A stretch of DNA of 64,000 bases, taken from positions 372,001-436,000 of the forward strand of contig NZ_JAHXDN010000004.1 in NCBI RefSeq assembly GCF_019375555.1, written 5' to 3'. The DNA is from Roseobacter insulae. GTDB taxonomy: Bacteria > Pseudomonadota > Alphaproteobacteria > Rhodobacterales > Rhodobacteraceae. The notes below the pieces were generated by a model, which had not been told where the DNA came from, made no database searches, and worked only from the letters and a program-made list of their open reading frames with translations. This document shows positions 2,786 through 35,404 of the stretch, piece by piece (position 1 is the stretch's first letter; each line of letters opens with the position of its first letter). A program made the translations under genes and the position numbers.

Positions 2786-3421
2786 TTAGGGTGGCTCGAA
2801 CATCTGGCCGATGTGGGGGCTTGGATGCAGGTGCGCGCCGTCAGATCGGGACAGCCGCGCCATGGCCGCCAGCAGGTTGTCCTGTCCGCGTGTGCGCGCA
2901 TGGGTCACAATGCCCCCGGTGACGGCCGGAAAACCGATACCGTCAATGCTCGCGCGATCCAGACGGAGCTGTCCATCTCGCCCGAGCCTCGGCAAAAGAT
3001 CCGCCGCAGCGTTTATGACGCTCAGCACCAGCCGCTCGATCAGGTCTTCATCGGACAGCGTGCGGCGCGCCACACCGGCAAACCGGGCTTCTTCGCGCAG
3101 TAAATCCTCGACCAGCGGATCAATCACCAACCCGCCACCGCCGGGGTAGCGATACCAGCCGACACCCACCTTTCGGCCCAGGCGGCCTTCGGCGACCATG
3201 CGGGGCACAATCGGGAGGTCATGGCCCGCCGCATTCATCGCACGATCTTCCGGGGTCATATCGAGACCATCCGCATCATGCGCTTCGCACACGCCCGTCG
3301 AGAACCCGAAGCGGGTCATTGCCTCGTCCAGCTCCCACGGGTTGGTAGCATCCATCAGCAGCCGCTCAGAGGCCGCGCGCAGGGCACTTTTCAACGCCCG
3401 GGCAGCGGCCTGATCGGTCAT
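2786..3421 (-). CDS. Stand-alone 3-hydroxyacyl-CoA dehydrogenase C-terminal domain protein
   Basis: This 211-residue protein resembles only the C-terminal half of FadB/FadJ. A first 3HCDH C-terminal repeat spans about residues 24-90 (NPWELDEAMTRFGF, then a GLDM segment). A second lies at about 125-190 (IERLVLSVINAAADLL, then IDGIGFPAVTGG). The N-terminal Rossmann NAD-binding domain and the crotonase domain are both absent, so it cannot by itself be a normal 3-hydroxyacyl-CoA dehydrogenase. Its ATG overlaps the boxR stop (ATGA), so the two are translationally coupled. Lower benzoyl-CoA degradation needs a 3-hydroxyadipyl-CoA dehydrogenase; this could be a partner subunit for it, a CoA-ester binding protein, or a remnant. 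The frame is intact with no sign of decay. Confidence 0.8.
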   Translation of the reverse strand: MTDQAAARALKSALRAASERLLMDATNPWELDEAMTRFGFSTGVCEAHDADGLDMTPEDRAMNAAGHDLPIVPRMVAEGRLGRKVGVGWYRYPGGGGLVIDPLVEDLLREEARFAGVARRTLSDEDLIERLVLSVINAAADLLPRLGRDGQLRLDRASIDGIGFPAVTGGIVTHARTRGQDNLLAAMARLSRSDGAHLHPSPHIGQMFEPP

Positions 3422-4308
3422 GCCGCAGGCACGTCCAGAAACCGTTTGGAAGCGATCACTTTCATCAGATCGTTCAACGACGCGGGAACTGTCCGGTTGG
3501 AGGTATCGACCTGCGCCTCCGCGCGCTCGTAAAGTGGCGTCCGCGTGCGCAAGAGCGCCTTGAGCTGCTCCATCGCCTCGGGGTTGCCCTTCATCGGGCG
3601 CAGGTCACCCTGCGCGCGCACCCGCAACATGTGCTCCGCTGGCGAGGTGCGCAGCCACACCGTATGGAACCGCTCCAGAACCTGAGCATAGGTGCGCTCT
3701 TCGGCGACAAGACCACCTGCAACAGCAAGGATCATCCGGTCATGCCGCTCCACGATGCGCGCCACCGCTTCCGCCTCAAGCCCGCGGTATCCGTCCTGAC
3801 CGTAAAACGCCATGACCTCGGACAGCGGCATGCCGGTGTGGGATTCGATCTCGTTATTCAACTCGACAAATGGCAACCGCAGGGCTTCGCCCGCCAGCTT
3901 GCCCAGCGTGCTTTTACCCGCCCCTCGCAGACCGATCAGGCAAATCCGCCCGGCGCGCAGTACCGCGGGGTTTTGCGGGGCCAGCAGCGCACGCACCTGC
4001 TGCTGGACATCCTGCGGCGCGTGACGGTACAGCATTGCCACCCGCTGCACTTCCATGTCCCACGGCGCGCTTTCTGACAGCAAGTGCTCGATCTTGACGT
4101 CGAGTGCATCGGACACGCGTTGCAGCAGAGCAATCGAAATATTACCCTCACCAGCTTCGAGTTGCGCGAGGTAGCGCGGCGAGACGCCTGAGCGTTCGGA
4201 CAGGGCCCGCCGGGGCAATCCCTGAGCCTTGCGCGCCTCGCGCACACGTGTCGCCAGCCGCGAGATGACCGTCGCCGCCGGTTCTGACCGGGTGATCACG
4301 TCAGGCAT
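3418..4308 (-). CDS. boxR: BoxR-type transcriptional regulator (XRE HTH fused to shikimate-kinase-like domain)
   Basis: This 296-residue protein resembles BzdR/BoxR, which represses benzoyl-CoA pathway genes and is released by benzoyl-CoA. Residues about 20-75 form an XRE-type helix-turn-helix (RALSERSGVSPRYLAQLEAG). A linker follows. The C-terminal half, from about residue 120, is shikimate-kinase-like with the P-loop GLRGAGKST, thought to be the effector-binding part in this family. ATG 4308 is preferred because GAGG lies five bases upstream; the longer frame would begin with TTG. A degenerate TGCA-type palindrome lies just upstream (4326-4339), so autoregulation is plausible. The gene follows boxA by about 110 bases. 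Confidence 0.92.
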   Translation of the reverse strand: MPDVITRSEPAATVISRLATRVREARKAQGLPRRALSERSGVSPRYLAQLEAGEGNISIALLQRVSDALDVKIEHLLSESAPWDMEVQRVAMLYRHAPQDVQQQVRALLAPQNPAVLRAGRICLIGLRGAGKSTLGKLAGEALRLPFVELNNEIESHTGMPLSEVMAFYGQDGYRGLEAEAVARIVERHDRMILAVAGGLVAEERTYAQVLERFHTVWLRTSPAEHMLRVRAQGDLRPMKGNPEAMEQLKALLRTRTPLYERAEAQVDTSNRTVPASLNDLMKVIASKRFLDVPAA

Positions 4309-4325
4309 GGAAGCCTCGGCATTTT

Positions 4326-4339
4326 CGTACAATAATGCA
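4326..4339 (-). promoter_or_regulatory. Possible degenerate BoxR operator in front of boxR
   Basis: On the minus strand this reads TGCATTATTGTACG. It shares the first eight bases with the palindromic sites upstream of boxC and the benzoate-CoA ligase gene, but has a degenerate second half (TACG for TGCA). It lies about 20 bases before the boxR start codon, where a bound repressor would block the gene. This is inference from motif similarity only. Confidence 0.35.
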
Positions 4340-4418
4340 TATCATTCTGAGGAAACTAGGGCACGCGCCACGGATTTCAGGTCAGAATGGCAACATGTCG
4401 CATCTTTTTTGCGATGCG

Positions 4419-5615
4419 CTAATAGGTTTCGACGTGATACCGGCCCGCATTCCGCATCTGGTCGCGCAGATCGGACCATTGCACACCGACACCGCGGGCA
4501 ATGTCACTCATGGCCTCTTCGACACCCTGCTCCATCGCCTTCAGGCCGCAGATGTAGACATGTGTGTTTTCATCGGTGATCAGCGCGGCAATCATCTCCG
4601 CCTGCTGGCGCAGCTTGTCCTGCACATATTGCTTTGGGCCGTCTTTCTGACGGCTGAAGGCAAATTCCTTGCGCATGAAACTGTCCGGCACTTTCTTGAG
4701 TGGCCCGAAATAAGGCAAATCGCGCGGACTGCGCGCGCCGAACACCAGCGTCAGGCTGTCCTTTGCCGATGACATTTCACGCTGACGCCGCATGGTGAAA
4801 CCGCGGAATGGTGCTGACCCGGTGCCGGTGCAGATCATCAGGAGATGTGCCTTCGGATCGGACGGCATCAGGAAAGTGGACCCGAAAGGGCCGGTAATCT
4901 GAACCTCGGCACCTTTTTCAAGATCACATACGTAGTTGGAACATATCCCTTTTTCTTCGCGCTTTACGGTCAAGGAGACGTTGTTGAAACCGGGGCGCTC
5001 GCCGTCGCGGGGGCTTGAGACCGAATAGAGACGCGGCAAATGTGGGTCGCCATTGGCATCTGTTCCGGGCGCGATGATGCCGATGCTCTGACCTTCGAGA
5101 ACCGGGAACGGCAGGCTGGCCAAGTCCAGAATGATGTGGCGGACGTCGCCGTCGCTGTCGGCTTCGGTTAGCCGGTAGTTGCCCTGCACCTTCGCGGTGG
5201 CAGGCGCGCCGAGAGTATAGAGGTTTATTGTCGGTTTCGAGGCCGAGGCAGGCGCTTTGACCTTCCCTCCGGCACCCTTGTGCGCCTCCGCCAGCAAAGC
5301 CGCGATCGCGTCATCATGCGCCTCTATACCGTCGTCAGATGCGTCCGGTTCGAGCGCGATATCTTCCTGCTCGGGAAGTTCATCGAAGCCGTATTGCTGG
5401 GCCAGACTGTAAGGCGTGTCGACCACACGCCATTCATCAATCGAACCAGTGGGGCAAACGGGAATGCAATCCATGCAGAAATTGCAGGTATCGGGGTCGA
5501 CAACGACGTTATTGTCGTCATGCTGGATCGCCCCGATGGGGCATGTCATCTCGCAGGTGTAGCAGCGGATGCAGATTTCAGGGTCAATGAGATGTTGTTT
5601 TACAGGTTGATTCAT
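4419..5615 (-). CDS. boxA: Benzoyl-CoA 2,3-epoxidase, reductase component BoxA
   Basis: BoxA passes electrons from NADPH to the di-iron oxygenase BoxB, which epoxidises benzoyl-CoA. The 398-residue protein starts with a two-cluster ferredoxin domain: Cys15, 18, 21, 25 and Cys44, 47, 50, 54 form two CxxCxxCxxxC motifs for [4Fe-4S] clusters. An acidic linker (about residues 80-120) leads to a ferredoxin-NADP reductase module with FAD-binding RLYSVSS and a nucleotide-binding MICTGTGSAPFRG segment. The C-terminus ends in Tyr, as is usual for this reductase family. Its ATG overlaps the stop of a 47-residue Cys-rich ORF (ATGA), and boxB lies 226 bases upstream. Confidence 0.96.
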   Translation of the reverse strand: MNQPVKQHLIDPEICIRCYTCEMTCPIGAIQHDDNNVVVDPDTCNFCMDCIPVCPTGSIDEWRVVDTPYSLAQQYGFDELPEQEDIALEPDASDDGIEAHDDAIAALLAEAHKGAGGKVKAPASASKPTINLYTLGAPATAKVQGNYRLTEADSDGDVRHIILDLASLPFPVLEGQSIGIIAPGTDANGDPHLPRLYSVSSPRDGERPGFNNVSLTVKREEKGICSNYVCDLEKGAEVQITGPFGSTFLMPSDPKAHLLMICTGTGSAPFRGFTMRRQREMSSAKDSLTLVFGARSPRDLPYFGPLKKVPDSFMRKEFAFSRQKDGPKQYVQDKLRQQAEMIAALITDENTHVYICGLKAMEQGVEEAMSDIARGVGVQWSDLRDQMRNAGRYHVETY

Positions 5616-5755
5616 GGGCTGGCGGCAGACCTGTGCAGCACCGTTTCCGGCAAGAACGCAAGATCAACGATTTCGCGGCACAGCCCCTGGCAATCGGTGC
5701 ATCCAATGCAGTTCGGGCGCGGGGTCTGCGGGGTCTTGGCGGTTGGGGTCTTCAT
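5612..5755 (-). CDS. Small Cys-rich protein (47 aa) translationally coupled to boxA
   Basis: A short frame lies between boxB and boxA. The start codon follows a good AAAAGGAG site and the stop overlaps the boxA start (ATGA). The predicted peptide has a Thr/Pro-rich first 14 residues, then CIGCTDCQGLCREIVDLAFL, then a short tail. The four cysteines (16, 19, 22, 26) form CxxCxxCxxxC, the same spacing as each half of the BoxA ferredoxin domain, so binding of one [4Fe-4S] cluster is possible. The motif, the ribosome-binding site and the overlap support a real gene. I do not recognise the family. It could be a one-cluster electron carrier or an assembly or oxygen-protection factor for BoxA/BoxB. 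Confidence 0.75.
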   Translation of the reverse strand: MKTPTAKTPQTPRPNCIGCTDCQGLCREIVDLAFLPETVLHRSAASP

Positions 5756-5831
5756 TGGTCCGGTCTCCTTTTCATGCAAAGGTCACTGGCTGTGACGCGG
5801 TCCAGTCTGAGTGGCCCGCGTTGCGATTACG

Positions 5832-5845
5832 TTGATGTGGATCAA
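5832..5845. promoter_or_regulatory. FNR-type box overlapping the boxB stop codon
   Basis: TTGATGTGGATCAA is a perfect match to the FNR/FnrL consensus TTGAT-N4-ATCAA. It overlaps the boxB stop (5842-5844) and its centre is about 83 bases upstream of the small Cys-rich ORF and about 224 upstream of boxA. An fnrL gene is in the same window. The motif is exact; its function at the end of a coding region is inferred. Confidence 0.55.
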
Positions 5846-7293
5846 GCCATGTGCAGTTTCACATATTCAAAATCGCCCGGCTTGTTGTCGATCCCAACCT
5901 TCGGTGGCGCGATCCACGAGGCATATTCGCCGGGTTCGTAACAGGGCACCATCAAGGATTGTATGAAATCGCCATCCGCCTTGGTGGGCAACCACTCGTC
6001 GCGGCGGCTGTTCCACTCCTCAGACGACATGATCGTGCCCTCGGGGTCGACTGCAACGGTCGAAAACACGCCGATCTGCCGGTGGAAGCCTTCGTGCGGC
6101 AGCTTCAGTTCAAATTCGACACCTGCCCTGGCAATCGCCTTGTTCCAGCGCCCGACACCCCCTGCGGCATCGCGCACGTAGTCGTCCCTCAACCGCATGT
6201 TGATCGCGGTAAGAGCAGGAACATCCTCGGTAACGATTTTGCCATCCTTGATCGATGTCACCGCGTAGGTGTCATTCTGAAGTTTGTGGTCATCGTCGAT
6301 CCGCAGTTCCATGTAGCGGCCCTTGATGCCGGCATTGAACGCATTTGCGGCGTTGGTGGAGACTTCCTGACCAAACAGATCGAGGCTGAGCGTATAGTGC
6401 AGGTTCAGCTTCTTCTGGATCGTTGGCAGATCAATCACACCCAGATCGCGGATCTTGTTGATATCGTAGGGGTCCGTGATGCCATGTCTGGTCATCGCTT
6501 CCAGGGTGGCCTGAATGGTGCGGCCCACCCCGGTTTCGCCTACGAACATGTGGTGTGCCTCTTCGGTCAGCATGAACCTGCATGTGCGGGACAGCGGGTC
6601 GAATCCCGATTGCGCAAGGCTTTCCAGCTGCATCTTGCCGTCGCGGTCCGTAAAATATGTGAACATGAAAAACGACAGCCAATCGGGCGTTTCCTCATTG
6701 AAGGCCCCCAGCATTCGGGGTGCCTCTTCACTCCCTGACGAGCGTACAAGAAGGTCGTTTGCCTCTTCTCGCCCGTCACGACCAAAGTATTTTTGCAGCA
6801 GGTAGACCATCGCCCAAAGGTGTCGGCCCTCTTCGACGTTGACCTGGAAGAGATTGCGCATGTCATAAAGGGATGGCGCGGTCAGGCCCAGAAACCTTTG
6901 CTGTTCCACCGACCCCGGCTCCGTATCACCCTGAATGACGATCAGCCGCTTGAGCATGTTTCGGTATTCACCGGGCACCTCCTGCCATGCCGGATCGCCA
7001 AAATGCTCTCCCATCGGGATCCTCCGGCCTTCGACAGCTGGCGCGAGCAAAACACCCCAGCGATATTCCGGCATTTTCACATAGTCGAATTTGGCCCAGC
7101 CCTTGGGATCCACGCTCACGGCGGTGCGCAGGTAAACCATGCTCTCCTGAAAATTCTGCGGAATCAGATCGTTCCACCAGTTGATGTAGCCGGGGTGCCA
7201 CTTCTCCAGCGCCTTGAGCACCTTCTTATCGGAACTCAGCCCAACATTGTTTGGGATCTGGCTGTCATAGCTGACGTTGATGAGATCGAGCAT
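5842..7293 (-). CDS. boxB: Benzoyl-CoA 2,3-epoxidase, di-iron oxygenase component BoxB
   Basis: BoxB is the class I di-iron epoxidase that uses O2 and electrons from BoxA to turn benzoyl-CoA into 2,3-epoxybenzoyl-CoA in the cytosol. The 483-residue length matches the family. The carboxylate-bridged di-iron motifs are visible: EEGRH at residues 154-158 and EEAHH at 244-248, within a helical core. The start is preceded by AGGAGG. It follows boxC after a 95-base gap that contains a strong inverted repeat. A perfect FNR-type box overlaps its stop codon. No anomaly in the coding sequence. Confidence 0.97.
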   Translation of the reverse strand: MLDLINVSYDSQIPNNVGLSSDKKVLKALEKWHPGYINWWNDLIPQNFQESMVYLRTAVSVDPKGWAKFDYVKMPEYRWGVLLAPAVEGRRIPMGEHFGDPAWQEVPGEYRNMLKRLIVIQGDTEPGSVEQQRFLGLTAPSLYDMRNLFQVNVEEGRHLWAMVYLLQKYFGRDGREEANDLLVRSSGSEEAPRMLGAFNEETPDWLSFFMFTYFTDRDGKMQLESLAQSGFDPLSRTCRFMLTEEAHHMFVGETGVGRTIQATLEAMTRHGITDPYDINKIRDLGVIDLPTIQKKLNLHYTLSLDLFGQEVSTNAANAFNAGIKGRYMELRIDDDHKLQNDTYAVTSIKDGKIVTEDVPALTAINMRLRDDYVRDAAGGVGRWNKAIARAGVEFELKLPHEGFHRQIGVFSTVAVDPEGTIMSSEEWNSRRDEWLPTKADGDFIQSLMVPCYEPGEYASWIAPPKVGIDNKPGDFEYVKLHMA

Positions 7294-7311
7294 TCATTCC
7301 TCCTGTCGGTC

Positions 7312-7381
7312 GGTGGCCTGAAGCCCACCTTGGAATTTCGGCACCCGTCAACCGGGCGAATAGGGCGGGCTTCAGGCCACC
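7312..7381. repeat. REP/REPIN-like inverted repeat between boxC and boxB
   Basis: GGTGGCCTGAAGCCC (7312-7326) and its exact reverse complement GGGCTTCAGGCCACC (7367-7381) flank a 40-base spacer. Each arm extends into its own imperfect hairpin around TTCA, and the right arm is preceded by TAGGG. Two REP-like units in opposite orientation are the usual layout of REPIN/BIME elements. It could act as an mRNA stability or processing element that sets boxC versus boxB/A levels. There is no T-tract, so it is not a normal terminator. Confidence 0.6.
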
Positions 7382-7388
7382 TATGCTG

Positions 7389-9047
7389 TTATACGCGTTG
7401 CATGTTGTACTCGGCACGCACCCCGGACCCGTAGCGCTGCAGCGCGCCTTCGGGACCCACGGCGTTGGGACGCTGAAAAATCCAGTTCTGCCAGGCAGTG
7501 AGGCGCCCGAATATGCGGGTCTCCATCGTTTCGGGGCCAGCAAATCGCAAGTTTGCCTCCAGACCCGTCATCGCATCGGGGGAGAAGCTGGCGCGTTCTT
7601 CGCGAAACAGGCGGACCTCATCCTCCCAATCGATATCGTCATAGGCATATGTGACCAGGCCGAGATCCTCGGCCTCTTCGGCGTCGAGATGTTTCCCGAT
7701 CTGGTCGCGCAGGGATTCCATATGTTCGCGCTGGCCATAGAACCGGGTTTCCAACCTGCTTAGTCCATTGCCCATCGGATATTGACCAAAATTCGATGGC
7801 GTCATCGCAACCGTTGCCAAGTGCCGGTCATCGTCGTCGAATTCCTCAAGCATCATGTAGCTGCGATCAACGGCCCACAGCAGTTCGGCCAGAACCCCGG
7901 CAAAACATGACCCATGTTCAATCAGCGCGACGAGGCTGCGAGACGTCATATCGACACGTTTGAGAACACGCTTCCAAAGGCCCAGAACCTCATTCGCCAG
8001 CCAATGACCTTGATGGTCGAGCAACAGCGCTTCGTGCGCGATGACCCGATCCGGAGCACCTCTGGTCTGGAATTCGATGAGCCCCAGTTCGTCTTCATTG
8101 GTGCGCAGATGCAGGATCGCATCGTCCAGTTCGCGGGCGCAGCGCAACATCCAGGCGTCAGAGCCTTGAGCGGTGAACGCATCCATGTCTGCCGGTGCGG
8201 CTTCCTCCGGCCCGGTGATGGTCACGACGGCGCGCCGACCGGGGCGATCCAGGTCAACCTCTACGGTCGAATAACGCACTCCGTTGTCGTGGAATTCCCG
8301 GGTCAGGGGCTTCAGGTCAATGCCCTGCGCAACATCCGGCTTTTCCGAAGCGGCAGCGAATTCTCGGGCCCGGTCAGCCACGGCATCGTCAAACTTCGAG
8401 TTTGCAACAACCTCATCAACCAGACGCCATTTCAGCGCCCGTTTGCCTTTGACCCCCTCCTCGACCGAACAGAAGACATCGGCCAGATCGCGACGGACCT
8501 TGCGTTTGTCGGTCACACGCGTCAGGCCGCCGGTTCCGGGCAGGACCGCAAGCAGCGGCACTTCGGGTAAAGCGACAGAGGAGGTGCTGTCGTCGGTCAG
8601 CATGATGTGATTGCACGCCAGCGCCAATTCGTAACCGCCGCCCGCGCAGGCCCCGCGAATAGCGCAGATGTAATTCTGCCCGCTGTCCGCCAGCGCGGCC
8701 TCGAATGTATTGCGGGTCTCGTTGGTGAACTTGCAGAAATTCACCTTATGCGCATGGGCCGCGCCCCCCAGCATTCGGATGTTGGCCCCGGCACAGAAAA
8801 CTTTATCCTTGGCAGACCGCATCACGACCACTTTCACCTCGGGGTGTTCGAAACGCATCCGCTGAACAACGTCCGCAAGCTCGATATCAACCCCCAGATC
8901 GTAGGAGTTGAGTTTGAGCTCATAACCCTCGAACAGTCCCGCCTTTTCATCGACATCCATGTAGAGATTGGCCACCGCGCCGTCGTAGGCAACGCGCCAA
9001 TGCTTCATCTGCTTGGGGTCAACCTGGAAGTCTATGTGTTTGGTCAC
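7389..9047 (-). CDS. boxC: 2,3-epoxybenzoyl-CoA dihydrolase BoxC
   Basis: BoxC opens the ring of 2,3-epoxybenzoyl-CoA to 3,4-dehydroadipyl-CoA semialdehyde and formate. This 552-residue protein is a large crotonase-fold enzyme, of the expected length for BoxC and twice that of simple enoyl-CoA hydratases. The N-terminal half carries the crotonase oxyanion-hole segments (VFCAGANIRML near residue 87, and a CAGGGYELALACN stretch near 134). The second half is the family-specific extension. A probable BoxR operator and a -10 like TATAAT lie about 115 bases upstream, overlapping the 3' end of the preceding gene. It heads the boxC-boxB-small ORF-boxA unit. Confidence 0.96.
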   Translation of the reverse strand: MTKHIDFQVDPKQMKHWRVAYDGAVANLYMDVDEKAGLFEGYELKLNSYDLGVDIELADVVQRMRFEHPEVKVVVMRSAKDKVFCAGANIRMLGGAAHAHKVNFCKFTNETRNTFEAALADSGQNYICAIRGACAGGGYELALACNHIMLTDDSTSSVALPEVPLLAVLPGTGGLTRVTDKRKVRRDLADVFCSVEEGVKGKRALKWRLVDEVVANSKFDDAVADRAREFAAASEKPDVAQGIDLKPLTREFHDNGVRYSTVEVDLDRPGRRAVVTITGPEEAAPADMDAFTAQGSDAWMLRCARELDDAILHLRTNEDELGLIEFQTRGAPDRVIAHEALLLDHQGHWLANEVLGLWKRVLKRVDMTSRSLVALIEHGSCFAGVLAELLWAVDRSYMMLEEFDDDDRHLATVAMTPSNFGQYPMGNGLSRLETRFYGQREHMESLRDQIGKHLDAEEAEDLGLVTYAYDDIDWEDEVRLFREERASFSPDAMTGLEANLRFAGPETMETRIFGRLTAWQNWIFQRPNAVGPEGALQRYGSGVRAEYNMQRV

Positions 9048-9158: not shown

Positions 9159-9179
9159 ATTATATGCATTATAATGCAT
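9159..9179 (-). promoter_or_regulatory. Probable BoxR operator with overlapping -10 element upstream of boxC
   Basis: ATGCATTATAATGCAT (9164-9179) is a perfect 16-base palindrome containing TGCA-N6-TGCA. On the minus strand TATAAT occupies 9159-9164, directly beside it, so a bound repressor would cover the promoter. Nearly the same palindrome lies before the benzoate-CoA ligase gene. TGCA repeats are the reported recognition sequence of BzdR/BoxR-type regulators; assignment to BoxR is inferred from this and from location. The site overlaps the last codons of the DUF309 gene. Confidence 0.65.
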
Positions 9180-9630
9180 CTATAACATCGTTTCGTAATT
9201 TCCCGGCGCGCGATCGAATGTCCTCTGGTGCAACCCCAAGGACGAGTCGCCCCGCCGGACACCGCTGGAGATGCGCATCGACCATATCGCACAGCCGTAG
9301 CGATGCGCGGGGACGTCCCATCAGGACCTTGAGTTGAGCATTGGCAAGCTGGATCAAAGCCTGAACCATATCGCGCTCCGGGGAAGGGTCCTGTGTGCGC
9401 ATCCAGACCGCCTCCAGAACCTCGTGGCATTCCCAGAAGAACCCGGCATCCAGATACGCGATCCCTGCCCTGAAGGCCTGTGTCTCGTGCAGGTCCCGCA
9501 CCGGCGTCGCAGACGAAACGCTCGCCTTTATGTCATCAAACCAGTCTTCAGGATGACGGCGGGTTTTGCCGGGCACATACAGATGCGGTGGGACGGGGAC
9601 ACCGTCCGGCCACTCAGGTGAGCGCGACAT
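9169..9630 (-). CDS. DUF309 family protein
   Basis: This is a 153-residue helical protein of unknown function. The segment FFWECHEVLEAVW (about residues 63-75) followed by a conserved QLKVLMG stretch identifies DUF309. The start is set at ATG 9630; the longer frame would run deep into the alpha/beta hydrolase gene. The stop of that gene lies inside this one (17-base overlap), so the two are coupled. The probable boxC operator overlaps its last codons. DUF309 proteins bind no ligand that I know of. Being inside the benzoate unit suggests a role in aromatic-CoA metabolism, which is inference only. Confidence 0.85.
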   Translation of the reverse strand: MSRSPEWPDGVPVPPHLYVPGKTRRHPEDWFDDIKASVSSATPVRDLHETQAFRAGIAYLDAGFFWECHEVLEAVWMRTQDPSPERDMVQALIQLANAQLKVLMGRPRASLRLCDMVDAHLQRCPAGRLVLGVAPEDIRSRAGKLRNDVIDAL

Positions 9631-10438
9631 TTTCCTGCTCCAGCCGCACCAGGCGCGCACAGAACTCCGCAATGGCATCACGGGTCGATTCCGGTTGTTC
9701 GAAGTGTGGCGCATGACCGCAGTTATCAAGGATCACCGACTCGAACGGCGCATAAATGCGTGTGTCGATCTCCTCGAGCTGCGCCAACGTGCCATAGGGA
9801 TCATCGCGCCCCTGAATGGCGAGCACCGGGACGCGAAGATGGTCGATGGCATCTGCAACATTCCAGCTTTCAAACGCCGGGTCGGTCCACGCGTCGTGCC
9901 AGCCACGAAACGCCGCATCCACGTTCTTATGGTGGCGCGCAAGCCGGTGTCTCATATCGCCGCTTGCGAATGCCTGTCCCGCAGCGCGGATCGCGGCAAG
10001 CCCCGTCGGTTCAGTGAAAAAATGCGGCGCTATGAGGATCAGCCCGCGGACCCGCATGTCGCTGACCGATCCGGCATAGATACTGGCGATCGTGGCCCCG
10101 TCAGAGTGACCCAACAGGATGACGTCGCGCATTCCTGCCGCGTTCAAGACAGCCCCCAGCACATCTTCCGCCTCGCGCGTCATATAGTCGAGCGGGCGTG
10201 GCAACCCGATGCTGTCGGACTGGCCGTACCCTTGACGTGAGTAGACGAAAACGCCCAGTCCGGTTGCGGCGGCCAGTTGTTGCGGCACATCGCGCCACAA
10301 GGCCACGCAGCCCAATCCTTCGTGCAGCATCACGAGCGTTGGCAACGTGCCGGGCGGTTGCCCAAAACAGGCATATTCCAGCGCCACGCCGTCAACCTCA
10401 AGCATCTGGCCGGGCTTGGCGGTCCACGCCAGCGTCAT
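9614..10438 (-). CDS. Alpha/beta hydrolase in the benzoate operon
   Basis: This 274-residue protein has an alpha/beta-hydrolase fold. The nucleophile elbow GHSDG provides the catalytic Ser, VLAIQGRDDPYG carries the acid region, and NCGHAPHFEQP near the C-terminus provides the His. The start is ATG 10438, which overlaps the stop of the benzoate-CoA ligase gene (ATGA), so the two are translationally coupled. No signal peptide is seen, so it is cytosolic. It might be a thioesterase that frees CoA from benzoyl-CoA or a dead-end ester, or it might hydrolyse aromatic esters to feed the ligase. The substrate cannot be told from sequence. Confidence 0.85.
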   Translation of the reverse strand: MTLAWTAKPGQMLEVDGVALEYACFGQPPGTLPTLVMLHEGLGCVALWRDVPQQLAAATGLGVFVYSRQGYGQSDSIGLPRPLDYMTREAEDVLGAVLNAAGMRDVILLGHSDGATIASIYAGSVSDMRVRGLILIAPHFFTEPTGLAAIRAAGQAFASGDMRHRLARHHKNVDAAFRGWHDAWTDPAFESWNVADAIDHLRVPVLAIQGRDDPYGTLAQLEEIDTRIYAPFESVILDNCGHAPHFEQPESTRDAIAEFCARLVRLEQENVALT

Positions 10439-30553: not shown

Positions 30554-32167
30554 TTATTCAGCGGGGACGGCTGTGCCGAGGGACGCCTTGGCAGGCGCCG
30601 CACGGACAGTCATCCACAGGTTGTAGCACATGATGGCGGCACCAGCGAGGAACATGACCCCGCCCAGACCCCGGACCACATACATCGGGAACTTCGCGCT
30701 GACGGTGTCGGCAAAGCTGTTCACGAGGAAACCATTGGCGTCGACTTCACGCCACATCAGGCCCTCCATGATACCAGTCACCCACATCGAGGCGGCGTAA
30801 AGCACGATACCAATGGTGGCGAGCCAGAAGTGCCAGCTGACGAGGCTCAGGCTGTAGAGCCGCTCGCGTTTCCACAGCACCGGCACGAGGTAGTAGAGCG
30901 CGCCGAAGGTCACCAGACCGTTCCAGCCAAGAGCACCGGAGTGCACGTGCCCGATTGTCCAGTCAGTATAATGCGACAGGGAGTTGACCGCGCGGATGGA
31001 CATCATCGGCCCCTCGAAGGTGGACATGCCGTAGAATGCCAGCGACGTGACCATCATCCGCAACACCGGGTCGGTGCGCAGCTTGTCCCAGGCGCCTTGC
31101 AGCGTCATCAGGCCGTTGATCATACCGCCCCAGCTGGGCATCCACAGGATGATCGAGAAGACCATGCCGAGCGTCGATGCCCAGTCGGGGAGAGCGGTGT
31201 AATGCAGGTGGTGCGGACCGGCCCAGATATAGAGGAAGATCAGGGCCCAGAAGTGAATGATGCTGAGCTTGTAGCTGAACACGGGGCGTTCGGCCTGCTT
31301 CGGCACGAAGTAATACATCATGCCCAGAAAACCCGCTGTCAGGAAGAAGCCCACGGCATTGTGGCCATACCACCATTGTACCATCGCATCCTGCACGCCG
31401 GAAAAGACCTGAACCGATTTGCTGCCCCAGATGGACACCGGTATCGAGATGTTATTGACGATATGCAGCATCGCCACGGTCACGATGAAGGCAAGGTAGA
31501 ACCAGTTGGCCACGTAGATATGCGGCTCTTTACGCTTCACGATCGTGCCCAGGAAGACGGCCAGGTAAGCGACCCAGACAATGGTCAGCCAGATGTCGAC
31601 ATACCATTCGGGCTCCGCGTATTCCTTGGACTGGGTGCCGCCCAGCAAATAGCCGGTCGCGGCAAGCACGATAAAGAGCTGATAGCCCCAGAACACGAAC
31701 CACCCAAGATTGCCCCCCCAGAGCCGTGCCGCTGATGTACGCTGCACGACATAGAAGGAGGTAGCGATCAAGGCATTGCCACCGAAGGCAAAAATCACCG
31801 CTGACGTATGCAGCGGCCGCAACCTGCCGAAGTTGGCGTAGCCCTCGGCCCATTCGAAGTTAAGAACGGGAAAGGCCAGCTGGAACGCGATGACCACGCC
31901 CACGAGAAAACCGACAACGCCCCAGAACGCAGTGGCGATGACGCCCGCGCGCACGACGCTGTCAAAATACTCGTTGCTCGGTGTCGGCACAGTTGGCTCA
32001 TCTATTGCGCGCAGGGTTGTCAGAAACAACCCCGCCGCCACGATCATGAAGATGACCATATGGACCTGGTACGCAACGTCGCGCGCATAGCTTGCGGCGA
32101 TCATTGCCATCAATGTCGCAAGCGCCAGGACCACCAGCTTTACGTAATTTAGTGTTCCGGTATTCAT
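30554..32167 (-). CDS. ccoN: cbb3 oxidase catalytic subunit CcoN
   Basis: CcoN (537 residues) is the proton-pumping haem-copper subunit with high O2 affinity, holding haem b and the b3-CuB site. It has about 12 hydrophobic helices. His-rich motifs are visible in [28 protein letters not shown] and the C-terminal [14 protein letters not shown], matching CuB and haem ligands. The ATG at 32167 is preferred over the longer frame because GGAG is directly upstream. A perfect FNR box lies 91 bases upstream, shared with the divergent usp gene, so induction under low oxygen by FnrL is expected. Confidence 0.97.
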
Positions 32168-32257
32168 CACTCCGGTTTCCCTTCCGGTTGTCCGCACGCG
32201 AGGCGCACGGATGTTCGTGGTATTGCCGGGTTTTGCCCTGCAACACAGCACCGCGCT

Positions 32258-32271
32258 TTGATCTGCATCAA
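32258..32271. promoter_or_regulatory. FNR box between ccoN and universal stress gene
   Basis: TTGATCTGCATCAA matches TTGAT-N4-ATCAA exactly. The two divergent start codons (32167 and 32364) are each about 97-99 bases from its centre. FnrL, encoded 1 kb away, is the likely regulator of both genes. Confidence 0.9.
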
Positions 32272-32363
32272 GCAACGCGGGCAATTTGGCTGACACCGAT
32301 CAAAGCCGGTGCACGCAGGGCGAGTATGATACCGAACAGACTGATTTGGAAAGGATTAGGATC

Positions 32364-33200
32364 ATGCCCTACAAAACGATTTTCACCGCCATGACCTCCT
32401 TCGCCTCCAATAAAGCCGCTCTCGAACAGGCGGCCTCTCTCGCTGAAGTGCACGACGCGCATCTTGAAGTGATGTGTCTGGGTATCGACCGGTCCCGGAG
32501 CAACTATTACGAAGTGGGTGCCAATGCGGTCATCATGCAGGCCGCCATCGAAGAAGCGTACACCAAGGCCGAGGTCGTCAAAGACGATGTTTCGTCATGG
32601 CTGGAGAGTTCAAAACTGCGCTGGAACGCCTCGAATGCCGTGGCAACACTTGCAGACGTGGGGCGCCCGCTGGCCCGGGGTGCACGATTCGCCGACCTAT
32701 GCGTTGTTGCGCTGCCCTACCGCGATGAAAGCTGCGCAGAAGACACCATGATTCTGGAAACTATGCTGTTTGATGCGGCCTGCCCGACGGTGGTTGTGCC
32801 GGATGCGGCCGTGCAGGCACGGCCCGAAAGCGTGGTGATCGGCTGGAACGAAAGCGCCGAAGCCCTGCGGGCCGTGCGCGCGGCGATGCCCATTCTCGCT
32901 GCCGCGACAGAGGTGCATATCGCCATCATCGATCCACCCGAGCATGCAGCAGATCGTTCCGACCCCGGAGGGGCGCTTGCGGTCATGCTGTCCCGTCACG
33001 GGGTGCATTGTGACATTCAGGTCATGTCCCGTGGCGGAGCAAAGATCAGCGAAAGGCTGCAGCGCCACGTCACCGAAACCAATTCGCAGATGCTGGTAAT
33101 GGGGGGATATGGTCATTCCCGGTTCCGCGAGGCGGTCCTGGGTGGTGCCACCCGGGAAATGCTGGAACATTCAAAAGTTCCGGTGTTCATGGCCCACTGA
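32364..33200 (+). CDS. Universal stress protein, tandem UspA type
   Basis: This 278-residue cytosolic protein has two Usp-like halves; the C-terminal half has the nucleotide-binding-like motif MLVMGGYGHSRFREAVLGG near its end. The start at 32364 follows AGGA; the frame is open further upstream into the FNR box region. It is divergent from ccoN with the shared FNR box, a common arrangement in this group, so it is probably induced at low oxygen. The function is unspecified stress protection. Confidence 0.88.
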   Translation: MPYKTIFTAMTSFASNKAALEQAASLAEVHDAHLEVMCLGIDRSRSNYYEVGANAVIMQAAIEEAYTKAEVVKDDVSSWLESSKLRWNASNAVATLADVGRPLARGARFADLCVVALPYRDESCAEDTMILETMLFDAACPTVVVPDAAVQARPESVVIGWNESAEALRAVRAAMPILAAATEVHIAIIDPPEHAADRSDPGGALAVMLSRHGVHCDIQVMSRGGAKISERLQRHVTETNSQMLVMGGYGHSRFREAVLGGATREMLEHSKVPVFMAH

Positions 33201-33239
33201 AGGGCCGTGGCGGGCGATGGCGGATCAGGGGACTTCCCG

Positions 33240-33983
33240 TTAAGTCAGGAAGCCGCCATCGCTATCGTCACCTGCTTCGAACAGCAGTTTGTCCATGTCC
33301 GGCACGCTAATGCGCCGTTTCCCCGACAGGGCAATCACGCCATCGCGCTTGAGCGCTGACATCTGGCGACTGACCGTTTCCAGCGTCAGGCCCAGATAGT
33401 CGGCCATTGCCTCGCGTGTCAGCGGCAGTTCGAAGGTCAGCGCTTTTCCGGGGTTGGATGTGCTAAAGGCAGCGTCCCGACGCGCGATGATAGAGAGCAG
33501 GCTGGCAATTTTCTCGCGTGCCGTTTTGCGCCCCAGTACCAGCATCCATTCCCGCGCCGCATCGAGTTCGTCCAATGTCATTTCCAACAGCCGCTGCGCC
33601 ACGTGCGGCGTGGTGTCCATCATCTGCTCAAAGGGCTTTCGCCGAAAACAGCACATCATCAGGTCCGACGTCGCGGTAACCGTGTAGGTGGCAACGCTGC
33701 GGCCCGGGCGACCCACGAAGTCGGACGGCAGCAACAGTCCGACCATCTGGGTACGGCCGTCTTCCATGGTCTGCGTAAGTGACGCAACACCGGACACGAC
33801 AGAGGCCACAAAGTCCATGTGATCTCCTGCCCACAACACGGGCTGACCGGCACTGAAGCTCCTGTAATACTTGATGTCCTCCAGCAACGCCAATTCGTCA
33901 CTGTCGCACTTGGCGCAAACCGCACGATGCCGGATCGGGCAGTCCGAACAGTTTTTGAAGGCTGGCGATGCCATGTGCTGCAT
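33240..33983 (-). CDS. fnrL: FnrL, oxygen-sensing CRP/FNR regulator
   Basis: FnrL (247 residues) senses oxygen through a [4Fe-4S] cluster and activates or represses genes with TTGAT-N4-ATCAA sites. Candidate ligands are Cys15, Cys23 and Cys26 (with Cys12 nearby) and Cys111 or Cys112. A cyclic-nucleotide-type beta-barrel follows at about 40-130, and the helix-turn-helix has the recognition segment LTLETVSRQM, whose Glu/Ser/Arg pattern is the FNR type. Start 33983 has GAGGA upstream. The gene is divergent from hemN with a near-perfect FNR box between them, suggesting autoregulation. Confidence 0.96.
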   Translation of the reverse strand: MQHMASPAFKNCSDCPIRHRAVCAKCDSDELALLEDIKYYRSFSAGQPVLWAGDHMDFVASVVSGVASLTQTMEDGRTQMVGLLLPSDFVGRPGRSVATYTVTATSDLMMCCFRRKPFEQMMDTTPHVAQRLLEMTLDELDAAREWMLVLGRKTAREKIASLLSIIARRDAAFSTSNPGKALTFELPLTREAMADYLGLTLETVSRQMSALKRDGVIALSGKRRISVPDMDKLLFEAGDDSDGGFLT

Positions 33984-34000
33984 AGATGCGGTCCTCTTTT

Positions 34001-34014
34001 TTGATCTGTGTCAA
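34001..34014. promoter_or_regulatory. FNR box between fnrL and hemN
   Basis: TTGATCTGTGTCAA matches the FNR consensus at nine of ten defined positions. It lies 18 bases before the fnrL start and 35 bases before the hemN start, so it can govern hemN and fnrL itself. Confidence 0.85.
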
Positions 34015-34048
34015 AGCGGTCTGTCTGCCCGCTCTTTATGCCAACACT

Positions 34049-35404
34049 ATGCCTATAACATCCAGATTAGCAAAGCTGGGGCTATTTGACGCGATGGTCC
34101 CGCGATATACAAGCTACCCGACCGCCCCTCAGTTCAGTGCTGACGTCGGTTCCGGACAGATGCAGGAATGGATCGGCGCCGTTCCACCGGGCAGCCAGGT
34201 ATCGCTTTATCTGCATATCCCGTTTTGCAGACGCCTGTGCTGGTTTTGCGCTTGTCGCACACAAGGCACTAAAACCCTCTCACCGGTCCGCGGTTATCTG
34301 GACAGGCTTAAAACCGAAGTCGCGATGCTCGGCCGCGCCCTGCCATCCGATGTCACACTGAGCCGGATACACTGGGGCGGCGGGACACCCACGCTTCTGT
34401 CTCCTGAAATGATGGCGGAGCTGGCGGAGGCTGTGCGCGTTGTCGCGCCCCTGGCAGACGGTGCCGAGTTTTCGGTTGAGATCGATCCCAATGAGATTGA
34501 CGCGGCCCGCCTCGACGCGCTCGCCGCGGCAGGGATGACCCGCGCCTCAATTGGCGTGCAGGATTTCGACCCCGAGGTGCAAACCACGATCGGCCGGATT
34601 CAGAGTTTCGAAGTCACCCGGGACGCCGTTGAAATGCTGAGACAGGTCGGGGTTACCTCCCTGAACGCGGATATCCTGTTTGGCCTGCCCCATCAGGACG
34701 AGACGCGTATTTCAGATTCCGTCCAGAAGCTGCTGACGCTGAACCCTGACCGTGTGGCGCTTTACGGCTATGCGCATGTGCCCTGGATGGCGCGCCGGCA
34801 ATCCCTGATACCCAGCGATGCGCTGCCCGCGCCGGAAAAGCGTTTGCGGCTGTTCGAAACCGCCCGCCAGCTGTTTGAGTGGGATGGATACCGGCAAATC
34901 GGAATCGACCACTTTGCAACGCCCGAAGACCGTCTGGCCATCGCCGCCGAGACCGGCAGGTTACGGCGCAATTTCCAGGGCTATACGGATGACCCTGCGG
35001 AGGTGCTGATTGGTTTGGGAGCCTCCGCGATCTCGCGGTTTCCGCAGGGGTACACCCAGAACGCGCCCGCGACCTCCGCCTATGCGAAGGCTATCGGAGA
35101 GGGCAGGTTTGCCACGGCCCGCGGGCATGTATTTGCCGGTCAGGACATTCTGCGGGCCCGGATCATCGAAGCCATCATGTGCGATTTCGAAGTGCGCGCG
35201 ACCGATCTTGCCGATCGGTTCCCGGGCTGCGAACATCAGGTGGCGCAGATGATGGAAACCGCGGCCGACCGTTTTGGCGACATTGTCCAGCTTACAGATG
35301 CGGGTCTGCGCATCCGTCCCGAAGGCCATACCCTCGCCCGGATCATCGCGCGCCATTTCGACGCCTACGATATGTCAGGCGCCGGGCATGCGTCGGCAAT
35401 CTAA
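34049..35404 (+). CDS. hemN: Oxygen-independent coproporphyrinogen III oxidase
   Basis: HemN is a radical-SAM enzyme that makes protoporphyrinogen IX without O2. The radical-SAM cysteines are Cys60, 64 and 67 in CRRLCWFCAC (Cys69 is the extra family Cys). Conserved segments are HIPFC, WGGGTP, VEIDPNE and YGYAHVPWM. I place the start at 34049 to give the usual N-terminus (GLFDAMVPRYTSYPTAP); 451 residues is the normal length. No strong ribosome-binding site is visible. The adjacent FNR box indicates anaerobic induction, complementing hemF. Confidence 0.95.
   Translation: MPITSRLAKLGLFDAMVPRYTSYPTAPQFSADVGSGQMQEWIGAVPPGSQVSLYLHIPFCRRLCWFCACRTQGTKTLSPVRGYLDRLKTEVAMLGRALPSDVTLSRIHWGGGTPTLLSPEMMAELAEAVRVVAPLADGAEFSVEIDPNEIDAARLDALAAAGMTRASIGVQDFDPEVQTTIGRIQSFEVTRDAVEMLRQVGVTSLNADILFGLPHQDETRISDSVQKLLTLNPDRVALYGYAHVPWMARRQSLIPSDALPAPEKRLRLFETARQLFEWDGYRQIGIDHFATPEDRLAIAAETGRLRRNFQGYTDDPAEVLIGLGASAISRFPQGYTQNAPATSAYAKAIGEGRFATARGHVFAGQDILRARIIEAIMCDFEVRATDLADRFPGCEHQVAQMMETAADRFGDIVQLTDAGLRIRPEGHTLARIIARHFDAYDMSGAGHASAI

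Follow-up and report, generated by a model that had tools for sequence, protein, structure and literature searches.

The closest described systems to the small protein that we report here are the half-ferredoxins, or semidoxins. In the passages of a 2025 report that treat them, extant half-ferredoxins appear rare, have so far been found only in thermophilic anaerobes, and have untested functions (PMC12648291). Semidoxins, including protodoxin-1 of Thermoanaerobacter, resemble our protein in possessing a very short chain with a single [4Fe-4S]-type motif and, as those passages present them, they share with it a candidate monomeric or homodimeric state and a link, putative in our case, to low oxygen (PMC12648291). 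The differences from the semidoxins described there concern length, sequence, habitat, and possibly fold: semidoxins have about 30 residues and a beta–alpha–beta fold and come from thermophilic anaerobes, whereas the small protein has 45–58 residues, lacks a proline right after its fourth cysteine in 66 of 67 homologues, yields AF2 models that contain only helices (of poor confidence, pLDDT 62 and 65), and belongs to mesophilic marine bacteria, with a predicted FNR-type promoter (same passages of PMC12648291). All 67 homologues that we collected (59 from boxA loci, the copy studied here, and seven from genomes lacking box genes) have one motif in a chain of fewer than 60 residues, a count to which the motif itself contributed, since it helped to find 59 of them.

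A second relevant system is the FnrL regulon of Dinoroseobacter shibae. According to the passages that concern it, FnrL targets in that organism include cbb3 and USP genes (PMC5398030). The likeness lies in TTGAT-N4-ATCAA sites with USP and cbb3 genes nearby; the FnrL passages of that report name no such small protein (PMC5398030), and the sites here are predicted from sequence. Bacterial 2[4Fe-4S] ferredoxins and the N-terminal Fer4 domain of BoxA have the same CxxCxxCxxxC spacing; these carry two motifs, whereas the small protein carries one and scores below the curated Fer4 cut-off. In classical two-cluster ferredoxins, the fourth cysteine of CxxCxxCxxxC ligates the other cluster. For that reason, the preliminary description of this locus, which was right about the four cysteines, went too far in calling their arrangement single-cluster ferredoxin spacing. 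Finally, aromatic oxygenase operons encode small cysteine-bearing ferredoxins such as XylT. Likened by description alone, the two agree in being small cysteine-bearing proteins inside an aromatic-degradation operon; set beside the XylT type, the small gene also occurs without oxygenase genes.

The small gene lies between boxB and boxA on the minus strand of a 64,000-nucleotide stretch of the Roseobacter insulae genome, which was analysed whole and is called the window (Table 1). The order on the minus strand is dctP, dctQ, dctM, ligase, hydrolase-like gene, DUF309-like gene, boxC, boxB, small gene, boxA, and boxR; boxR is followed by one further gene and, on the plus strand, by a MAPEG-like gene. 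The DUF309, MAPEG, TRAP, and hydrolase labels are presumptive, having been assigned by eye from characteristic features. The presumed DUF309-like gene (9169–9729), which has a FWECHEVLEAVW stretch and for which NCBIfam returned no match, remains next to the small gene in those species of the genus that lack box. The 47-residue translation of 5612–5755 contains the motif CIGCTDCQGLC, and the TGA of the small gene (5612–5614) overlaps the boxA ATG (5613–5615) to give ATGA. Frame, ribosome-binding site, four-cysteine motif, and overlap had all been proposed in the preliminary description, and each is confirmed in the sequence. In the window, this is the one ATG frame of 40–70 residues with CxxCxxCxxxC, and at least one such frame arose in 5 of 200 windows simulated with a first-order Markov model. 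An Rfam scan of 4000–7400 found no structured RNA, and no sigma-70 consensus promoter was found in 5300–6200.

Table 1. Features of the box cluster, the small gene, and the candidate FnrL elements in the window.
Feature	Coordinates	Strand	Basis or remark
boxR-like regulator, next after boxA	3418..4332	-	NF006015 357.6 bits, cut-off 204
boxA, reductase of benzoyl-CoA epoxidase	4419..5615	-	TIGR03224 535.9 bits, cut-off 459.2
ATGA, small-gene stop over boxA start	5612..5615	-	sequence; same overlap in 47/59 loci
Small gene, 47 aa, with CxxCxxCxGxC followed by predicted helix and conserved Pro	5612..5755	-	frame and homologues
Ribosome-binding site AAAAGGAG	5765..5772	-	9 nt ahead of small-gene ATG, read from sequence
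FNR-type palindrome TTGATN4ATCAA, exact	5832..5845		76 nt upstream of small-gene ATG, overlaps boxB stop
boxB, epoxidase subunit	5842..7293	-	TIGR03225 892.7 bits, cut-off 499.1
boxC, dihydrolase	7389..9047	-	TIGR03222 938 bits, cut-off 712.3
Second exact FNR palindrome of the window	32258..32271		between ccoN and USP-like gene
fnrL, candidate regulator of small gene	33240..33983	-	NF045989 457.5 bits, cut-off 300

A BoxA scan of public genomes yielded 80 boxA loci. The preliminary description had left room for the frame and its cysteines to prove unconserved at other boxB–boxA junctions. Both are conserved: a short CxxCxxCxxxC frame lies directly upstream of boxA in 59 of the 80 loci, with the proviso that these were found via the cysteine pattern, so cysteine invariance among them is partly built in. 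The boxB–boxA gap measures 195–383 nt with the small gene versus 23–135 nt in 19 loci without it. The remaining two of the 21 frame-less loci are L054, which is cut by a contig end, and L090, which has a gap of 255 nt and no CxxCxxCxxxC frame. Among uncut gaps of at least 195 nt, 59 of 60 hold such a frame.

The ATGA overlap with boxA, present in 47 of the 59 loci, could suggest a cis-acting upstream frame that merely couples or tunes boxA translation. We regard that as highly improbable: selection acts on the amino acids, box-less copies have no boxA downstream, and the frame stops at least 70 nt ahead of boxA in seven loci. Because the small gene ends 70–127 nt before boxA in those seven, coupling to boxA is not universal. 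The loci concerned are L064–L066, L070, L071, L095, and L099, that is, the Maritimibacter-type loci plus L070.

All 67 homologues contain CxxCxxCxGxC with an invariant glycine; 63 have exactly four cysteines, and 65 have a proline 9–11 residues past the fourth. The core of the small gene is under purifying selection, with a pN/pS of about 0.3. Specifically, core pN/pS is 0.34 among box-bearing species of the genus (8 of 13 box-bearing genomes compared), and the other two reading frames give 1.04 and 1.90 in the same comparison. The value is 0.26 among the three box-less copies of the genus and 0.30 between these and the box-bearing species. For the whole gene at all distances, the median is 0.82 (495 pairs), with pN below pS in 86%; the median is this high because the N-terminus is loosely conserved and synonymous substitutions approach saturation. 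Three alignments were made: A1, of 48 chosen sequences; A2, of 57 of the 59 loci plus the window, two loci with GTG or TTG starts being left out; and A3, of 54 sequences. Junction conservation, purifying selection, and the Markov simulations rule out a spurious frame. The small frame is a genuine, conserved, and so far unnamed gene, and in the titles and abstract openings that we searched, we found no small protein between boxB and boxA.

Searches of Pfam and NCBIfam returned no match above cut-off for the small protein, and assignment to a known family was rejected on that basis. Fer4_2 scored 13.7 bits against the window protein (cut-off 24.5), and the best E value among 48 members was 0.0019; the weak family matches are mostly to Fer4 models and rest on the cysteine spacing. 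Profile comparison with the BoxA ferredoxin domain gave a probability of 2%. A Foldseek search of the PDB with the poor model returned nothing useful, and the low-confidence model leaves no known fold to propose. Ferredoxins usually have a proline after the fourth cysteine. Because the Fer4 matches are weak, that proline is missing, and the models are poor, the small protein should not be called a ferredoxin. Judged from its motif, it is likely to bind an Fe–S cluster. Four cysteines also suffice for zinc, and a small Zn-binding adaptor or regulator in place of an Fe–S protein would agree with the lack of the proline in 66 of 67 homologues and of a confident ferredoxin match. We consider this unlikely, given that CxxCxxCxxxC is the spacing of Fe–S motifs and that the weak matches point mostly to Fer4 models.

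The small-protein family occurs chiefly within a single family of Rhodobacterales. We surveyed 248 genomes of that family, one per genus, by profile search, with at most 27 candidates scored per genome. The small gene gave a match in 42 genomes and boxB in 54; both occur in 35, and each of these 35 matches sits, according to the listed coordinates, immediately downstream of boxB. Two of these 35 matches are poor, one being split between two frames (G027) and one weak (G181). The other 19 of the 54 boxB-bearing genera gave no small-gene match at the search sensitivity used, which is not proof of absence. Among the 194 boxB-negative genomes, four possess an intact small gene (G148, G235, G259, and G281); one further copy is split by a frameshift (G185), and two doubtful weak matches (G019 and G135) are not counted as copies. 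The frame-split copies are located at G027:C3:2494120-2494286, beside an intact boxB, and at approximately 8002–8167 of L152 (G185), in a genome without boxB.

In the genus, 13 of 19 genomes carry boxB and the small gene, three of the six box-less genomes carry the small gene only (G003, G017, and G018), and three carry neither (G009, G010, and G012). A BoxA search at E 1e-20 in 13 box-less genomes found none. Intact small genes are present in seven genomes without boxA and boxB. A class-wide survey of 385 genomes, a few of them from the family, returned the window copy (G000) and three short weak matches only; at most 17 candidates were scored per genome, which means that a genome without a match may still carry the gene. 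The small gene also occurs in two box loci whose titles name Roseitalea and Phyllobacteriaceae (L051 and L077). Plasmid records searched with one homologue as the query at E 0.01 yielded no match. Sulfitobacter D7 was dropped as a case of box genes without the small gene, the strain being described, in the relevant part of the source, as using the catechol route (PMC9873259).

The preliminary description proposed that the small protein is a carrier, assembly factor, or protection factor for BoxAB. If it were dedicated to that service, its box-less copies would be vanishing relics. Such a role accords with the position directly downstream of boxB in 35 of 35 boxB-positive genera with a match, the ATGA overlap in 47 of 59 loci, and the likely low-oxygen promoter before boxA in the genus; the missing copies in box-less G009, G010, and G012 and the frame-split copy in G185 are likewise what relics would give. 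We nonetheless consider dedication to BoxAB quite unlikely. The small gene is found neither with every boxAB nor only with boxAB: 19 of 54 boxB-positive genera give no match, and intact copies occur in seven box-less genomes from at least four lineages. Moreover, pN/pS is 0.26 among the box-less species of the genus, which form a long-branched clade, and these species keep the FNR site. BoxA is also complete in its own cysteines, all eight being present in 21 of 21 aligned BoxA rows (7 from loci lacking the small gene), which rules out the small protein as the supplier of a missing BoxA ligand. The proposed service to BoxAB is thus at most half correct: the gene mostly travels with box, and a dedicated role is what the evidence speaks against.

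Gene order bears on how the box-less copies arose. In G017 and G018, the order is dctP, dctQ, dctM, DUF309-like gene, small gene, and MAPEG-like gene; G003 has a similar order without the MAPEG-like gene. Box genes are absent from both flanks, and the small gene is kept at the same syntenic spot. In a gene tree of the dctM region, box-less G003, G017, G018, G010, and G012 form one clade (100/100) whose nearest relatives are box-bearing; the small gene is kept in three of these five genomes, and G009 lost both independently. In other genera, the box cluster is followed by a YcaQ-like gene in 27 of the 80 loci and by a LacI-like gene in 25, and G148, G235, and G281 carry the small gene beside this pair without box genes. 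The same pair flags the site of box insertion in several genera, box-less genomes included (L148, L149, and L151). In a second gene tree, G148, G235, and G281 lie apart among 23 box-bearing rows; three changes are needed, forced by well-supported branches, and one group appears in 0% of 200 bootstrap trees. Both trees are gene trees, G281 (L151) is flagged as a long branch in the second, and the second was built from rows that have YcaQ and LacI within range, a choice that barred box-less genomes lacking the small gene from appearing in it. Most simply read, the box genes were lost at least four separate times, and each time the small gene was spared; it is also conceivable that the small gene was in place before the box genes arrived. 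Under either history the small gene persists without box, and it is thus separable from box.

The TRAP transporter genes dctPQM are often in the same region, and the small protein could be an accessory of that transporter: the gene directly neighbors dctM in the box-less genomes G148 and G235 and lies close to it in G003, G017, and G018. An accessory role of this kind is very unlikely. The dctM gene is not beside the small gene in G259 and G281, the best DctP match of G115 is on another contig, and the TRAP binding protein matches 156 of 248 genomes versus 42 for the small gene. A link to TRAP alone was rejected on G259, G281, G115, and these genome counts.

The FNR-type palindrome upstream of the small gene points to oxygen control. 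In all 16 genus copies, including those of the three box-less species, a palindrome matching at least 8 of 10 positions is located 68–84 nt upstream, and in 15 of 16 it matches 9 or 10. Among 20,000 random positions drawn from the fetched loci themselves, 9 matches were reached at 114 and 8 at 682. Because the palindrome is kept in box-less species, which have no boxB, boxB coding is no explanation for it. Genome-wide (4.88 Mb), exact TTGATN4ATCAA occurs at 11 sites and the reversed control at 0. The other exact sites are near ccoN (identified by model) and, by eye, several USP-like genes, Hsp20-like genes, and a sensor-kinase-like gene. In the window alone, there are three sites with at most one mismatch, and as many arose in 17 of 100 shuffles; thus, the window shows no excess. 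The region 30554–35404 clusters ccoN (minus), a USP-like gene (plus), fnrL (minus), and hemN (plus), and a one-mismatch FNR site lies at 34001–34014, near the hemN frame start. Outside the genus, the palindrome is present in 3 of 29 other family copies, including an exact site in box-less G235. Among the 59 box-locus copies, nine have at least 9 of 10 positions, all in the genus, and no FNR-type site was found upstream of the small gene in box-less G148, G259, and G281. Putative FnrL control of the small gene, with a site at promoter distance and FnrL encoded in the same genome, is well supported in the genus and is not general.

The reading that we favor, at a probability of roughly one half, is that the small protein is a low-oxygen-induced, half-ferredoxin-like Fe–S carrier with a single motif and a box-independent role. 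It would hold one [4Fe-4S] cluster per chain, or two as a homodimer, and would carry electrons or clusters at low oxygen. In the genus, FnrL would switch on the small gene's own promoter, which would start at the end of boxB; where box is present, the ATGA overlap would take boxA along on the low-oxygen transcript. We infer metal binding, FnrL binding, and a redox role for the small protein. Its job would be separable from BoxAB, and a separate job is probable because the small gene persists in some relatives without the benzoate enzymes.

More tentatively, and with considerable doubt on our part, the small protein may be a natural half-ferredoxin of aerobic marine bacteria: an FnrL-induced homodimer or monomer of 47–58-residue chains, each with one CxxCxxCxGxC motif, that would carry electrons in its own low-oxygen pathway and would have been picked up by, and several times have outlived, the box operon. 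Half-ferredoxins are the postulated ancestors of bacterial ferredoxins. In marine bacteria, a conserved family with one motif, a likely oxygen switch, and defined neighbors could offer a genetic system for probing the role of such proteins. If the favored reading is true, the box pathway in the genus would possess an oxygen-sensing layer, in the form of an intra-operon promoter, active at low oxygen, that precedes the reductase gene.
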